A DNA stretch of 64,000 nt, taken from positions 20,467 through 84,466 of the forward strand of contig NZ_AEIZ01000013.1 in assembly GCF_000165675.1 (NCBI RefSeq). The letters run 5' to 3'. Made by a program: the position numbers and the translations under genes. The DNA is from Leuconostoc fallax KCTC 3537. GTDB lineage: Bacteria > Bacillota > Bacilli > Lactobacillales > Lactobacillaceae. Of the stretch, positions 8,475-13,532 are shown piece by piece. Each line of letters begins with the position of its first letter. The stretch's first letter is position 1. Below the pieces are notes generated by a model. It worked only from the letters and a program-made list of their open reading frames with translations. It had not been told where the DNA came from and searched no databases.

Positions 8475-8822
8475 TTATCGCAAAATAAAATGGCTGAATA
8501 ACAATCCTAAAGCTAAGCTGAAACATCCGCAAATTGTTTGCAATAGTAAGTAGCCAATTTGCCGTCGTAGACGCTTTTGAGCACTCTGCGTCATCATGGT
8601 ACTAAATGTTGTAAAGCCACCTAAAAAGCCGGTAATCAGGATTTCGCGCCAAAAAGAGGCATGCACCTGTGTTAGGACTATTCCCAAAATAAAAGCACCG
8701 ATAATATTAACCACGAAAACTGCCGTAAAATATTGAAAATGCGGTGGCCACCAGGTCATCACGGCAAATCTTAGCATCGAGGCAATGCCCGCACCTAATG
8801 CAATCCAAAGTAATGTCATCAT
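8475..8822 (-). CDS. crcB: CrcB/FluC fluoride channel subunit 2
   Basis: A 115-residue four-helix channel subunit. Family signatures include ALGAGIASMLRFAV at the N-terminus, VVNIIGAFILGI, and the sodium/fluoride motif GFLGGFTTFSTM. Its start overlaps the stop of the upstream crcB by one base (TAATG). Paired crcB genes encode two chains that assemble as an antiparallel heterodimer exporting fluoride. Confidence 0.9.
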   Translation of the reverse strand: MMTLLWIALGAGIASMLRFAVMTWWPPHFQYFTAVFVVNIIGAFILGIVLTQVHASFWREILITGFLGGFTTFSTMMTQSAQKRLRRQIGYLLLQTICGCFSLALGLLFSHFILR

Positions 8823-9217
8823 TATGTCCTATTCACAATTCTTCTCGCAAACAAACGTCCCCAAACAACCATTAACATACCGCCGACTATTGTCATCACT
8901 AAATATAGTACGGCTTCCTCTGGTTCATCCATTAACAACTCATAGCTCTGTAAAATAAGCGCACTGAATGTCGTAAAGCCACCAATAACGCCTGTTCCAA
9001 TAAATGATTGCCAATGGCTTAATCGACTATCCGTCAATAATAAGTATTCACCCAACATTGCCAAACAAAAAGTGCCGAGTAAATTAATAAAAGTAATCAT
9101 GATTGGCCAATGACCAATATGCGGTATTAATTGTAGTAAATAACGTAAACTACCACCAATGGCTCCACCCAAACCAATAATTAATAATTTAATTATAAAA
9201 TCACTTTGTTTTTGCAT
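8822..9217 (-). CDS. crcB: CrcB/FluC fluoride channel subunit 1
   Basis: A 131-residue partner of the downstream crcB, with GLGGAIGGSLRYLLQL, TFINLLGTFCLAML and GVIGGFTTFSAL at the expected positions. The first codons follow the -10 element almost immediately and no Shine-Dalgarno is visible, so the mRNA looks leaderless. There is no room for a fluoride riboswitch between the promoter and the start. Confidence 0.9.
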   Translation of the reverse strand: MQKQSDFIIKLLIIGLGGAIGGSLRYLLQLIPHIGHWPIMITFINLLGTFCLAMLGEYLLLTDSRLSHWQSFIGTGVIGGFTTFSALILQSYELLMDEPEEAVLYLVMTIVGGMLMVVWGRLFARRIVNRT

Positions 9218-9261: not shown

Positions 9262-9290
9262 TTGACATTTAACATATTTCTTAGTATTCT
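9262..9290 (+). promoter_or_regulatory. Promoter of the trp leader and trpXYZ
   Basis: Perfect TTGACA (9262-9267), 17-bp spacer and TATTCT (9285-9290). Expected start near 9297, giving a ~250-base leader before trpX. Confidence 0.75.
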
Positions 9291-9320
9291 TAACCTATTC
9301 AGAAAACTTGGAGTAATATA

Positions 9321-9368
9321 ATGCACAATTTATTATTAATTTCTAATAAAGCCTGGTGGCGTCGGTAA
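9321..9368 (+). CDS. Tryptophan leader peptide MHNLLLISNKAWWRR
   Basis: A 15-codon frame with GGAG (9310-9313) seven bases before its ATG, starting about 24 bases into the transcript. It carries two consecutive Trp codons (9354-9359) followed by two Arg codons and TAA. The end of the frame contains GTCGGTA (9361-9367), which can pair with the downstream segment TACCGAC (9418-9424). A ribosome stalled on the Trp codons would cover GTCGGTA. This is the design of a classical amino-acid attenuator leader. Confidence 0.85.
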   Translation: MHNLLLISNKAWWRR

Positions 9369-9519
9369 AACAGCTTGTTCTTAAAAGGATAAAGCTGGCG
9401 GATTTCAGTTTTATCCATACCGACTATTTTGTGTATAACTCAAAGTCTGTATGGTAATGACCATACAGACTTTTCTTTTGACCTTGAATTGTCCTGTATG
9501 GCAAATCAAGGTCATTTTT
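9361..9519 (+). promoter_or_regulatory. Trp attenuator with alternative hairpins and two terminators
   Basis: Segment 1 is GTCGGTA (9361-9367). A local hairpin spans 9387-9397 with 9406-9416. Segment 2 is CCATACCGAC (9415-9424); it can pair with segment 1 or with segment 3 GTCTGTATGG (9445-9454). Segment 3 with segment 4 (9460-9472) forms a 13-bp terminator followed by TTTTCTTTT. A second terminator stem (9479-9491 with 9502-9514, one mismatch, T5) has the loop TCCTGTATGG, nearly a copy of segment 3, which could pair with a freed segment 4. Stalling at Trp codons favours 2:3 and readthrough. Confidence 0.75.
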
Positions 9520-9548
9520 AATTGAAATAATATTCTAGGAGAAACATT

Positions 9549-10546
9549 ATGAATAAACGACTAATGAGTGTAATAAGCATTATTGTAATCTTCTTGGCAA
9601 TTGCTTTTGTCACAACTAATCGTACACAAAAAATAAACAACAAGTACCAACGGTTGGTATTTTACAACTGGTCACCCACCCCGCACTCGATCAAATTAAC
9701 AAAGGCGTAGTTGCTGGTTTGAAATCAGAAGGTTTTGTTAATGGTAAAACCGTTAAGATTGATTATCAAAATGCGCAGGCTGATCAAAGTAACTTAAAAA
9801 CCATGGCCGAGAAATTTGCTAATGAGAACGCTGATATCACGGTCGGTATCGCGACGCCTGCTGCTCAGTCACTTGCTAAATCTGCTAATGGCCAAAATCC
9901 TGTCATTCTAGCTGGTATCACTGATCCAGTAGGTGGCGGACTCGTCAAATCTAATAACCGTCCCGGCGGTAATATTACAGGTACTTCTGGTGAATCACCC
10001 CTTGCCTCTCACCTTAACTTAATTAAGCGTGTTGTACCGAATGCTAAAAAACTGGGCATTATCTATACCTCCTCAGATCATGGTGGTGAATATAATGCTA
10101 AAAAAATGCAAGCTCTTGCCCAAAAAGCTGGCTACGATGTGCATATGTACACTATTTCAACCACCAATGACATGCAGCAAATTGCCGAAACAATGGCTAA
10201 TCAAGTAGATGCTGTCTATGCACCACAAGATAATGGTGTGGCGTCAGCAATGAAGACATTAGTTGGCGTAACAAATAAGGAAAAGGTACCCGTCTTCCCT
10301 GCTGTTAACACAATGGTCAAAGATGGTGGTCTTGCAACTGTCTCAGTTAATCAATTTGAACTGGGTAAAGCTTCTGGTATTATGGCCGGACGCGTTCTTA
10401 AAGGTAAGAACCCAGCCACCTATCCCATTAAGTTTATTACCAAAGGGGATATGACAATTAATACTTCAACTGCTAAAACACTAGGCATCACCTTACCCGA
10501 CGACATTGTGCGTGAAGCTGAAAATAAAGGAGAAATTTACAAATGA
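9549..10546 (+). CDS. trpX: TrpX-type ABC transporter substrate-binding protein (frameshifted near start)
   Basis: ABC_sub_bind family solute-binding protein, the first gene of a predicted tryptophan importer. AGGAG and ATG at 9549 give a signal-anchor (MNKRLMSVISIIVIFLAIAF). The frame is then lost at an A6 run (9628-9633); one added A gives KNKQQVPTVGILQLVTHPALDQ and joins the rest. The mature part has the family features GIATPAAQSLAKS, LAGITDPVGGG and YAPQDNGVASAM. No lipobox Cys is present, so it is probably held by an uncleaved helix. The stop overlaps trpY (ATGA). Tryptophan specificity is supported by the Trp leader peptide and by comparative T-box predictions for trpXYZ in other Firmicutes. 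Confidence 0.8.
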
Positions 10547-11442
10547 GTATGATTGTTTCCAGTATTGGTCAAGGCCTCTTATGGGCTGTCTTAGGTGTCG
10601 CTCTCTTCTTGACTTTCCGTATATTAAATTTTCCAGATATGACAGTTGAAGGTTCTTTTCCACTTGGTGCCGCAACAGCCGTCACTTTAATTAGTCATAA
10701 TGTTTCACCAATTTTAGCCACGATCATTGCCTTTGGTGTTGGTGCCTTGGCTGGTTTAGCGACAGGGTTACTTTATACAAAAGGTAAAATCCCAATTTTA
10801 CTAGCCGGAATTCTTGTTATGACTGCTTCTTTGTCTATTAACTTACGTATTATGGGATCAGCCAACATTTCCTTGTTGGGTAAAGATACTCTCTTTTCTG
10901 CCCATTTCTTGTCAACACTACCTAAATATTTTGACTCTGTCTTGGTTGGCTTTATTATTATCAGTGTTATTACTGCATTACTTGTCATTTTTCTACAAAC
11001 AGAAATTGGTCAAGCGTTCATCGCAACTGGTGATAATCCAACAATGGCACAATCTATTGGTATTCGTACAGATCGCATGACTATCATGGGCTTAATGATA
11101 TCTAATGGTTTGATTGCCTTTGGTGGCGCTGTCATTGCCCAAAATAATGGATACGCTGATATTAACATGGGTATTGGTATTATTGTCATTGCCCTTGCTT
11201 CAATTATTATCGGCGAAGTCGTTTTCGGCGAATTGACGCTAACAGAACGTCTCATCGCTGTTGTTGTTGGTTCCATTTTATACCGCCTTGTATTATTAGC
11301 TGTCTTAAGACTTGGTTTTTCAACCAACGATCTCAATTTATTGTCAGCCATCGTCTTAGCGATTGCCATGATGTTACCGCAAATCAGCAAAGCACTAAAG
11401 TTGGATAAAGTAATTAAGAAAGGATTGGCTAACCATGACTGA
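10543..11442 (+). CDS. trpY: TrpY-type ABC transporter permease
   Basis: A 299-residue polytopic permease of the family paired with ABC_sub_bind proteins. Recognisable segments are LFLTFRILNFPDMTVEGSF near the N-terminus, GLLYTKGKIPILLAGILVMT and TGDNPTMAQSIGI. It starts four bases inside the trpX stop and overlaps trpZ by eight bases, so the three subunits are translationally coupled. It forms the membrane channel of the importer. Confidence 0.85.
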   Translation: MSMIVSSIGQGLLWAVLGVALFLTFRILNFPDMTVEGSFPLGAATAVTLISHNVSPILATIIAFGVGALAGLATGLLYTKGKIPILLAGILVMTASLSINLRIMGSANISLLGKDTLFSAHFLSTLPKYFDSVLVGFIIISVITALLVIFLQTEIGQAFIATGDNPTMAQSIGIRTDRMTIMGLMISNGLIAFGGAVIAQNNGYADINMGIGIIVIALASIIIGEVVFGELTLTERLIAVVVGSILYRLVLLAVLRLGFSTNDLNLLSAIVLAIAMMLPQISKALKLDKVIKKGLANHD

Positions 11443-12202
11443 ACCCGTATTTAGACTTCAAGATGTTGATGTTACTGTAAAGCAAGGTACATTAGCTGCA
11501 ACTAAAATATTAAAAGGTATTAATTTTGATATATATGAAGGTGATTTTATCACTGTATTGGGAACAAACGGTGCTGGTAAATCCACTTTATTCAATGCTA
11601 TCGCTGGCAATCTCCAATTGAGTCACGGCCACATCTTGCACCACGGTACTGACATCACACAAAAAAGTCCAGTTGAACGAACAGATTACATTGCGCGCGT
11701 TTTTCAAGACCCTAAGATGGGTACTGCCCCTCGTATGACTGTTGCAGAAAACCTGTTGCTTGCCGAAAAGCGAGGCGCAAAACGACGCTTACGCGGACGT
11801 AATCTATCTAAAGAAAAATTAGCGCAATATCGTGAATTAACGCAAACAATGGGGAATAACCTCGATACCCGTTTACAAACAGCCACTGGCAATCTATCCG
11901 GTGGACAAAGACAAGCCCTAAGCTTCTTAATGGCAACGCTTGTTAAACCAGAATTATTGTTATTAGATGAACATACTGCTGCTTTAGATCCTAAAACTTC
12001 CGAACAACTGATGACAACAACTAATCAGCAAGTCACACAAAATCAGTTAACCGCCCTTATGATTACGCACAATTTAGCTGATGCGCTAAAATACGGTAAC
12101 CGTTTAATTGTTTTGAATGCTGGAGACATCGTGCTGGATGTTCGTAATGAAGAAAAAGCAAAATTATCCGAAGAACAATTACTCAAATATTTTATTGCAT
12201 AA
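11435..12202 (+). CDS. trpZ: TrpZ-type ABC transporter ATPase
   Basis: A 255-residue ATPase with Walker A GTNGAGKST (about 45-53), Q-loop ARVFQDPKMGT, signature LSGGQRQAL and Walker B LLLLDEHTAALD, then the switch His in MITHNL. It closes the trpXYZ operon and powers uptake. Confidence 0.88.
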   Translation: MTEPVFRLQDVDVTVKQGTLAATKILKGINFDIYEGDFITVLGTNGAGKSTLFNAIAGNLQLSHGHILHHGTDITQKSPVERTDYIARVFQDPKMGTAPRMTVAENLLLAEKRGAKRRLRGRNLSKEKLAQYRELTQTMGNNLDTRLQTATGNLSGGQRQALSFLMATLVKPELLLLDEHTAALDPKTSEQLMTTTNQQVTQNQLTALMITHNLADALKYGNRLIVLNAGDIVLDVRNEEKAKLSEEQLLKYFIA

Positions 12203-12353: not shown

Positions 12354-13532
12354 ATTTTGCTTAAAGGTCATCATAAACAAACCACCACTAATCAGAATCA
12401 TCATGATAAACACTGACAAAAAAGAGCCCTCATCCAACCTCGGTCCATCATAAATCCTGAATATAGCGGACCAACCACGCGTCCTGAACTAATCATCATT
12501 GTCACAAAACCTTGTGCCTGCCCAGCAACCGACTGTGGCGTCATTTGAGCAACCCACGCTGGAACTTGTGGACTTTGCAACATTTCACCCACAGTTAATA
12601 GTTCAAATACAATCACAATTTGCCAAAAATCTCGAACAAAATTAAAAGAAAAACTAGAAGCAAAAATGACGCTCCCAATCAAAATGGATACTTCATAGCG
12701 ATGTTTATTAGCCCAATTAGAAATAACTCTTTGGAACAAAATAATCGTAATGCCGTTAATCATCCATAAATCCGCATAATTTCTTGTCGGCATCCCCAAT
12801 GTCTTCATATGTGGTGCCATCACTGTCTCCCATAAGATATACGACAAGTAAGTAATAAATAGTAAGGCACCAATGGCAATTAATAACGGTGTGAGTTGCA
12901 ATTTCTTTGGTGTGAGATTTGTATGACGATCAGTACGTACAACAGGAACTGTTGGTATATCAACGCTCACATTGAACTTAAAAAGACAACCAACCACAAT
13001 AGTAAATAAATAAAGCTCGAAATGATCATTAGTAGATAAAAACCATAGTCAAAAAGGTAACCCACAACTAATGTACCTAAAACCATCCCTACATTTAATA
13101 CGATATACAGATTATTAAAAACAACACGCGTCTTTTCAGATCGAATCGTTGTTGCATAAGCATTAACTAAAGTTAATTCGATTCCCATACCAAAATTCGC
13201 AACCCATATTAAAATCGCAAACATTGGCCAGCCATTCCAAAAAATCAGGCTTGCGACAGCCAAAAAATAATAGCAATCGTTACTAGTAACGCCTTATAAG
13301 GTTGCCAGTGATCAAATAATTGCCCACCAATGAAAGAACCAAAGACGCTTATCATTGATCCTATCATCAAAACAAGACCTGCAGTCATAAAACTTTGATG
13401 TAGCTGGCCTGTCATATATAGGGTAGATACCGGCCATATCATTGAATTACCGATATTAGATAGCAATGTTCCAATAAGTAACCATTTTTCATCTAATGTG
13501 TGATTGACCATCTGCTTTTGTTCAATATGCAT
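12339..13532 (-). pseudogene. MFS transporter broken by three frameshifts in this record
   Basis: A major facilitator protein of about 395 residues, split over three frames. Part 1 (13532 to about 13265) has the start and MFS motif GGQLFDHWQPYK. Part 2 continues as VASLIFWNGWPMFAIL. Part 3 carries the C-terminal half (GEMLQSPQVPAWVAQM, GQAQGFVTMMISSGRVVGPLYSGFMMDR). The shifts are at an A6 run 13262-13267, an A5 run 12980-12984 and near 12434-12439; each is cured by one added base, and the C-terminus then ends with MTFKQNKKHT at 12339. Substrate unknown. It is either a real pseudogene or three miscalls. Confidence 0.75.

Follow-up and report, generated by a model that had tools for sequence, protein, structure and literature searches.

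The question that this locus raises is what controls transcription of trpXYZ, a candidate tryptophan uptake operon, in a stretch of 64,000 nucleotides from Leuconostoc fallax (hereafter the window, meaning the whole of the DNA analysed). The original prediction saw a ribosome-mediated attenuator here, and we find the promoter, the GGAG and the 15-codon ORF with tandem Trp codons all present in the sequence as it had claimed, together with its alternative pairings, GTCGGTA with TACCGAC and an antiterminator of 9415-9424 with 9445-9454 (Table 1). The terminator and T-run that it had described are there as well, the stem counting 14 pairs (9442-9473) instead of the 13 bp it had given. T1 and the antiterminator (CCATACCGAC with GTCTGTATGG, which has a single C.U mismatch) are mutually exclusive pairings 5' of trpX. 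The T1 stem has a predicted stability of -19.3 kcal/mol (z -6.95), T2 of -18.3 kcal/mol (z -6.23) and the leader from 9297 to 9474 of -57.5 kcal/mol (z -6.81), with 0 of 200 shuffles equally stable. As far as sequence can tell, the original prediction was right about the kind of system and its amino acid; absent from it were the competition between b:b' and P1, the second hairpin T2 and an alignment to the Rfam family RF04312 that lies below the cut-off. Our own reading, to which we give a probability of about 90%, is that a leader-peptide transcription attenuator precedes trpXYZ and would let RNA polymerase pass only while a ribosome is stalled at the tandem Trp codons.

Table 1. Features of the trpXYZ leader and operon, in positions of the window.
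Feature	Position	Strand	Basis or detail
Promoter-like site TTGACA-17-TATTCT, sigma-70-like	9262-9290	+	10/12 consensus matches
Shine-Dalgarno GGAG of leader ORF	9310-9313	+	read from sequence
Leader peptide ORF, 15 codons, MHNLLLISNKAWWRR and stop	9321-9368	+	translation
Tandem Trp codons inside leader ORF	9354-9359	+	translation
Segment a, GTCGGTA, within ORF end; partner a'	9361-9367	+	pairing, sequence
Segment b, CAGCTT; partner b' (9392-9397)	9371-9376	+	pairing
P1 5' arm GGATAAA, overlapping b' AAGCTG (9392-9397)	9387-9393	+	competing pairings
P1 3' arm, TTTATCC; partner P1 5' arm	9410-9416	+	pairing
Antiterminator 5' strand CCATACCGAC, including most of a'	9415-9424	+	pairs with 9445-9454
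Segment a', TACCGAC; partner a	9418-9424	+	pairing, sequence
Segment d, GTCTGTATGG, antiterminator 3' strand and terminator 5' arm	9445-9454	+	pairing
Terminator T1 with U-rich tail (stem 9442-9473; d' 9461-9470)	9442-9479	+	14 pairs
T2, second terminator-like hairpin	9480-9519	+	GACCTTG 9480-9486 with CAAGGTC 9507-9513; T-run 9515-9519
Segment d'', CTGTATGG, within T2, complementary to d'	9494-9501	+	pairing
Shine-Dalgarno AGGAG of trpX	9537-9541	+	read from sequence
trpX, tryptophan ABC transporter substrate-binding protein	9549-10546	+	NCBIfam NF041285, 384.5 bits
trpY, ABC permease	10543-11442	+	named by operon order; NCBIfam gives weak sugar/urea permease matches alone
trpZ, ABC ATPase	11435-12202	+	named by operon order

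That the transporter probably carries tryptophan, which had been deduced before from the leader, is also backed by the NCBIfam TrpX match, which reaches 384.5 bits against a cut-off of 390 with a query that lacks the N-terminus. The trpX frame from 9549 stops after 53 codons and the TrpX match continues in an ORF of another frame (9719-10546). Split genes occur elsewhere in this draft, with MFS-like ORFs at 12401-13532 lying in three pieces (by eye) and trpB of the same genome in two overlapping ones; sequencing errors are therefore likelier than a real lesion in trpX. Upstream of the leader and divergent from it are two adjoining CrcB-like (fluoride exporter) genes on the minus strand (8475-9217).

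What we observed are the sequence, its possible pairings and their conservation, and from these we infer where the ribosome may stall, in what order the RNA may fold, when transcription may terminate and how all this may respond to tryptophan. With no ribosome on the leader, or after its release, segment a would pair with a', d would stay free and T1 would form, which would leave the operon off. A ribosome stalled at the Trp codons, when charged tRNA-Trp is short, would cover a and leave b free, and because P1 shares its 5' arm in part with b' and its 3' arm in part with the antiterminator strand, b:b' would block P1 and free a'; the latter could then capture d so that T1 could not form, and the operon would be on. 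With tryptophan plentiful, a ribosome at the stop codon would cover a and b alike, P1 would form and hold the side of a', T1 would form and the operon would again be off. Masked folding of the window leader, for which transcripts were cut before d' and the ribosome footprint was masked, gave an antiterminator probability of 0.00 with no ribosome (a:a' 0.99), of 0.81 and 0.82 with the ribosome at the first and the second Trp codon, respectively, and of 0.09 with the ribosome at the stop codon (P1 0.99); folded alone, the stretch 9368-9456 adopts b:b' plus the antiterminator. The earlier idea that a ribosome paused at the Trp codons masks the first segment and frees the antiterminator is therefore consistent with masked folding in the window (0.00 to 0.81), but the masking of segment a does not make up the whole logic, as it would be the contest of b:b' with P1 that tells a ribosome stalled at Trp apart from one that has reached the stop codon.

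Conservation among relatives was followed through a TrpX search of 397 genomes from the window's family (Lactobacillaceae), 362 of which had a match, and through the upstream regions retrieved for 89 trpX loci from 21 genera. All 39 trpX loci retrieved from six genera carry an in-frame WW or WWW leader (g1, 1/1; g16, which is Leuconostoc, 19/19; g2, 10/10; g29, 5/5; g39, 2/2; g7, 2/2), it being understood that these genera were grouped by that very outcome, that loci agree within each and that some are near-copies. Three of the 39 also occur in named records, those of Leuconostoc falkenbergense, L. pseudomesenteroides and L. litchii. Tandem Trp codons are thus conserved in relatives, so that this check, proposed along with the original prediction, did not refute it. 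The peptides end in ..AWWRR, ..QWWRR, ..PWWRR or ..QWWRQ (..WWWL in g29), and it is this end that is constant while the N-terminal part varies. A Shine-Dalgarno sequence precedes 34 of the 39 ORFs and none of the five from g29 (L015-L017, L022, L023); in upstream sequences from g16 and g2, inspection by eye shows TTGACA and a -10-like hexamer again.

No SD-led WW ORF was found in the trpX loci of the other 15 genera, and a filter for WW or at least three Trp codons had made these genera seem leaderless. This was wrong, since their usual leader has one Trp, as in ..WQSR..; among 50 loci from the 15 genera, 46 have an SD-led short ORF with W-Q, W-N, W-L, W-G, W-H or WW, compared with 5.85 of 50 in the shuffle control for such single-Trp leader ORFs. 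The possibility of a chance ORF was rejected on the strength of conservation and shuffles together. Upstream of trpX in Lactobacillaceae, a Trp leader ORF rather than a T-box is the usual element. The g29 leaders are a second architecture, with the classic arrangement: the segment right 3' of the stop codon forms the antiterminator stem, with the 5' side of the terminator as its partner, when the ribosome is masked at the Trp codons, and this segment is covered when the ribosome sits at the stop codon (5/5 loci, two pairs of them near-copies). About 15-20 bases before their ATG we noted, by eye, a -10-like TATGAT or TATAGT, and the g29 leader mRNA may start very close to its own start codon.

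Pairings were counted segment by segment in 28 unique leaders of g1, g16 and g2, with the window included (30/30 sequences matched); the four loci of g7 and g39 and the five of g29 stand outside this count, and the MAFFT alignment (A1) misplaces a' in g7. All cells of a:a' (168/168), b:b' (140/140), P1 (c:c', 140/140) and T1 (d:d', 280/280) are paired, with changes on both sides in two pairs, none, one and one, respectively; in the antiterminator 242 of 280 cells are paired and one pair has changed on both sides, a second weak position of this helix pairing in 18 of the 28 leaders. Pairing falls when partners are swapped across genera, i.e. to 92% for a:a', 91% for P1, 90% for T1 and 75% for the antiterminator, with b:b' at 100%. 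Compensatory changes, the other hallmark by which the original prediction could be judged, therefore occur at least once in each of a:a', P1, antiterminator and terminator, while b:b' has none, so that its covariation support is absent within the WW clade and comes from the wider class (see below).

Masked folding of the same 28 leaders gave mean antiterminator probabilities of 0.04 with the leader free, 0.15 and 0.21 at the first and second Trp codon and 0.03 at the stop codon. Mean a:a' in the free state is low (0.31) because most g16 leaders prefer P1; the role of segment a as a brake is therefore not borne out in these, and their switch would have to depend on the order of folding. Equilibrium folding supports switching clearly in the window alone and weakly elsewhere, and we dropped it as a proof of switching given the weak trend outside the window.

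Past T1 lies the second terminator-like hairpin, T2, part of which (d'') is complementary to the 3' arm of T1 (d'). This complementarity beats shuffles (p<=0.05) in 26 of the 28 leaders, the exceptions being L057 and L058, and its mean score of 21.1 falls to 12.2 with a d' borrowed from the other genus; g2 leaders keep d'', and there a T2 hairpin is not evident by eye. With T1 kept from forming, its 3' arm would be free and would, though this is less certain than the switch itself, pair with d'' within T2 and might so delay T2 in the manner of a relay. Before the 3' arm of T2 is made, d':d'' folds with -15.8 kcal/mol, and once that arm is present, T2 wins (-18.3), which makes a relay from T1 to T2 in the WW clade plausible. 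As a general feature of the class the relay was rejected (16/113 loci compared with 13/113 in a 5'-arm control and 6/113 in swaps) and is kept for the WW clade alone. The Tyr and Phe leaders L160, L163 and L166 (see below) have 10-12 d':d'' pairs.

Of the Rfam families, RF04312, the 'trpB motif', matches the window region best (9382-9482, plus strand), aligned in register over the full length of the model (1-107) with 29.7 bits and an E of 0.041 in 601 bases, so that the gathering cut-off of 59 is not reached; the seven other Rfam matches listed for the region have E values of at least 1.9, and whole-genome searches do not report RF04312 at this locus. Judged by its anatomy - P1, an antiterminator in its right shoulder, a terminator and an amino-acid transporter gene next to it - the window element is best taken as a diverged relative of RF04312. 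In the account of its discoverers, this class (SRC-39-1) is a strong riboswitch candidate of more than 900 members, with covarying hairpins, antiterminator and terminator before amino-acid genes, and a classic attenuator could not be excluded (PMC11109978). Genomes with an RF04312 match number 130 of 397 in the family (11 over the cut-off), 184 of 345 in the order Lactobacillales (55 over the cut-off) and four of 398 in a phylum sample, one of these four from Lactobacillales.

We examined 139 RF04312 matches from Lactobacillales (39 returned as loci, 80 hand-picked down the lists and 20 more chosen so as to favour one genus and low scores) for SD-led ORFs of 8-32 codons that end near the motif, a rule blind to Trp albeit drawn up after Trp leaders had been seen. 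Such an ORF precedes 130 of the 139 matches (115/119 plus 15/20) and contains Trp in 117 (108/119 plus 9/20), compared with 3.7% of 2,380 shuffles for an ORF with Trp; at least two Trp codons are found in 67 of the first 119, common ends are ..WQSR and ..WQNWRR, and an SD-led ORF with Trp near its end occurs in each of the seven families sampled. On inspection, four loci (L135, L157, L167, L185) have a ..W(Q/N).. leader that the ORF picker missed or misread, L133 has kept ..NNSWQSR and the stop codon without a start signal, the matches L170 and L171 look spurious, and no leader was seen in front of the low-scoring matches L222, L226, L228, L229 and L233. Outside Lactobacillales, the ORF in front of L212 (52.1 bits) is SD-led, has several Phe codons and lacks Trp; L213 and L214 look spurious.

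The pairings extend into this wider class. Among 113 leaders, one of them with a misread ORF (L135), complementarity beyond shuffles is seen between b and the P1 arm in 96 and between a and the right shoulder in 75; a leader's own segment beats the mean of other lineages' segments in 109 cases for b and in 100 for a. Alignment A2, made of 21 hand-chosen members out of 34 listed, all from the window's family, has 94.1% of cells paired in the off state (a:a', P1, T1) with changes on both sides in 17 of 27 pairs, compared with a mean of 7.5 in shuffled and 2-4 in slid registers. For the antiterminator, 89.7% of cells are paired and four of 12 pairs have changed on both sides (shuffled mean 1.6; slid registers 0-3), and for b:b', which aligns poorly in A2, the best register pairs 65% of cells compared with 25-58% in others. 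One antiterminator position is mismatched throughout - a C.U in 28 of 28 WW leaders, and in 21 of 21 class members at A2 columns 79 and 114 - perhaps because each of the two strands has other partners to pair with. In masked folding of the 113 leaders, antiterminator probability is higher at the stall than at the stop codon by more than 0.05 in 44, lower in 17 and level in 52.

Codon content changes with the gene downstream. Six leaders have a run of Tyr codons (L160, L163, L215, L216, L217, L221) and three a run of Phe codons (L166, L218, L219); six of these nine come from the 20 further RF04312 matches, and all nine precede TrpX-like proteins, three of which match NF041285 well below its cut-off while the rest were assigned by eye. 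Both leader types are present in three genomes, namely G106 (L064 Trp, L166 Phe), G386 (L091 Trp, L221 Tyr) and G231 (L220 Trp, L163 Tyr). Other Trp leaders stand in front of tryptophan biosynthesis genes, with L231 preceding an anthranilate synthase N-terminus (a trpE-like gene) and L100 preceding trpB, further trpB assignments having been made by eye. There are, moreover, single cases of a leader with a mixture of aromatic codons (..RYYWFS) before a transketolase gene (L162), of one rich in Ser codons (..SFSWSTVTSV, L164) before serC and of one with a His run (..LHHHLHR, L098) before a member of the Arg/Orn antiporter family; these are possibly further re-aimed copies. L161 (..TSWQVWYIS) and L232 (..TSWQAWYIL) precede a membrane protein that has no Pfam match and, in the case of L161, no NCBIfam match either, and the codons of both hint at an aromatic amino-acid transporter. 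In L094, a group II intron reverse transcriptase-like ORF (by eye) lies just 3' of the terminator where relatives have trpX, which suggests that an intron inserted at the terminator of the attenuator.

RF04312 is very probably the 3' half of a codon-programmed leader-peptide attenuator in many Lactobacillales. A larger proposal, towards which we lean at somewhat better than even odds, has RF04312 not as a riboswitch but as the 3' half of an order-wide, codon-programmable attenuator of Lactobacillales, in which one scaffold would have been re-aimed from Trp to Tyr or Phe through the codons of its mini-ORF, would open only with a ribosome on these codons and close both without a ribosome and with one at the stop codon, and in the Leuconostoc-like clade would also hand on its decision to a second terminator through a strand relay. 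If, on the other hand, RF04312 and with it the window locus were a metabolite-binding riboswitch, the short ORF would be incidental. The discoverers filed the class as a strong candidate of this kind in their account (PMC11109978), and P1 is indeed conserved, but an incidental ORF hardly squares with its presence, SD-led and with Trp near its end, in front of the motif in all families sampled, nor with the exchange of its codons for Tyr or Phe ones before paralogous genes; furthermore, the overlapping pairings a:a', b:b', P1, a':d and d:d' account for much of the conservation. To our minds, a riboswitch is thus very improbable. We think just as little of the chances that the leader ORF senses an antibiotic or the general speed of translation rather than tryptophan, even if antibiotic-responsive leader peptides are known in Firmicutes: the residues near the end of the ORF correspond to the operon that follows (Trp for trpX, trpB and the trpE-like gene; Tyr and Phe for TrpX paralogues) and the N-terminal part of the peptides varies.

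Control of trpXYZ by a tRNA-sensing T-box would have a precedent in Streptococcus suis, whose trpX T-box is experimentally supported (PMC9382623). Here, however, there is no Rfam T-box (RF00230) near the window leader, nor did a scan at gathering score, which covered 70 out of the 89 loci and the three named copies, find one on the strand of trpX; the T-box is thereby contradicted as a candidate, and we attach next to no probability to it. T-boxes near trpX lie on the opposite strand in five loci (L021, L027, L029, L034, L042), three of them below the cut-off; this arrangement, seen in g38 and g33, makes it likely that T-box control applies to a divergent neighbour beside a leader-controlled trpX. 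The original prediction was hence borne out in stating that a T-box core is absent here (no Rfam match), but the norm that it gave for such genes in Firmicutes, the T-box, does not apply to this family, the leader ORF being usual before trpX in Lactobacillaceae. The reading we prefer is the leader-peptide attenuator that would read Trp codons.

The mechanism is known in principle; what sets this variant apart is its scaffold, the three states predicted for it, its spread and the exchange of its codons. A search of open-licence literature turned up no description of Trp leader peptides from Lactobacillales. Our proposal offers a testable answer to what an orphan RNA class of more than 900 reported members does, and it suggests that in Lactobacillales, whose better-known amino-acid switch is the T-box, translated leaders are in wide use as well, for aromatic amino acids. 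Since the codons vary with the gene that follows, the leader can serve to predict the substrate of the transporter, so that Trp, Tyr or Phe may be assigned to ABC_sub_bind paralogues that are otherwise hard to distinguish. A switch with these predicted states, closed when no ribosome is present, open while one sits at the codon and closed again once it has reached the stop, would be a compact design that could be dissected in food-grade bacteria.

Among known systems, the trp attenuator of E. coli (trpL) has a short ORF with tandem Trp codons, a stalled ribosome that favours an antiterminator and an intrinsic terminator before the first gene. The window leader resembles it in its tandem-Trp short ORF, its putative stall-favoured antiterminator and its terminator 5' of the first gene, and yet differs in several ways: a terminator-favouring segment (a) lies inside the end of the ORF, b:b' versus P1 comes on top, only a Trp stall is predicted to switch the operon on, this operon serves uptake, and T1 is followed by another terminator-like hairpin with complementarity to it. 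The Rfam Trp leader of enterobacteria has no match in the window, neither at gathering score nor up to an E of 10. The g29 trpX leader, from a related genus and with WWW before trpX, is alike in kind and simpler than that of the window, as the segment after its stop codon would form the antiterminator stem and no Shine-Dalgarno sequence precedes its ORF. With RF04312 the window shares P1 (the class's first hairpin), the antiterminator in the right shoulder, the terminator and a position before an amino-acid ABC transporter or trpB; in contrast, the class has no leader ORF in the description consulted (PMC11109978), the window scores below its cut-off, and the window leader has WW where RF04312 leaders have W-Q-S-R or W-Q-N-W-R-R. 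The trpXYZ T-box of S. suis serves the same operon, presumably the same signal (tRNA-Trp charging) and the same outcome of antitermination, but on the evidence given for it the T-box there reads the tRNA directly and involves no translated leader (PMC9382623). For histidine, in other lineages of Firmicutes, predicted leader-peptide attenuation likewise replaces a T-box (PMC9413887; PMC2965389).
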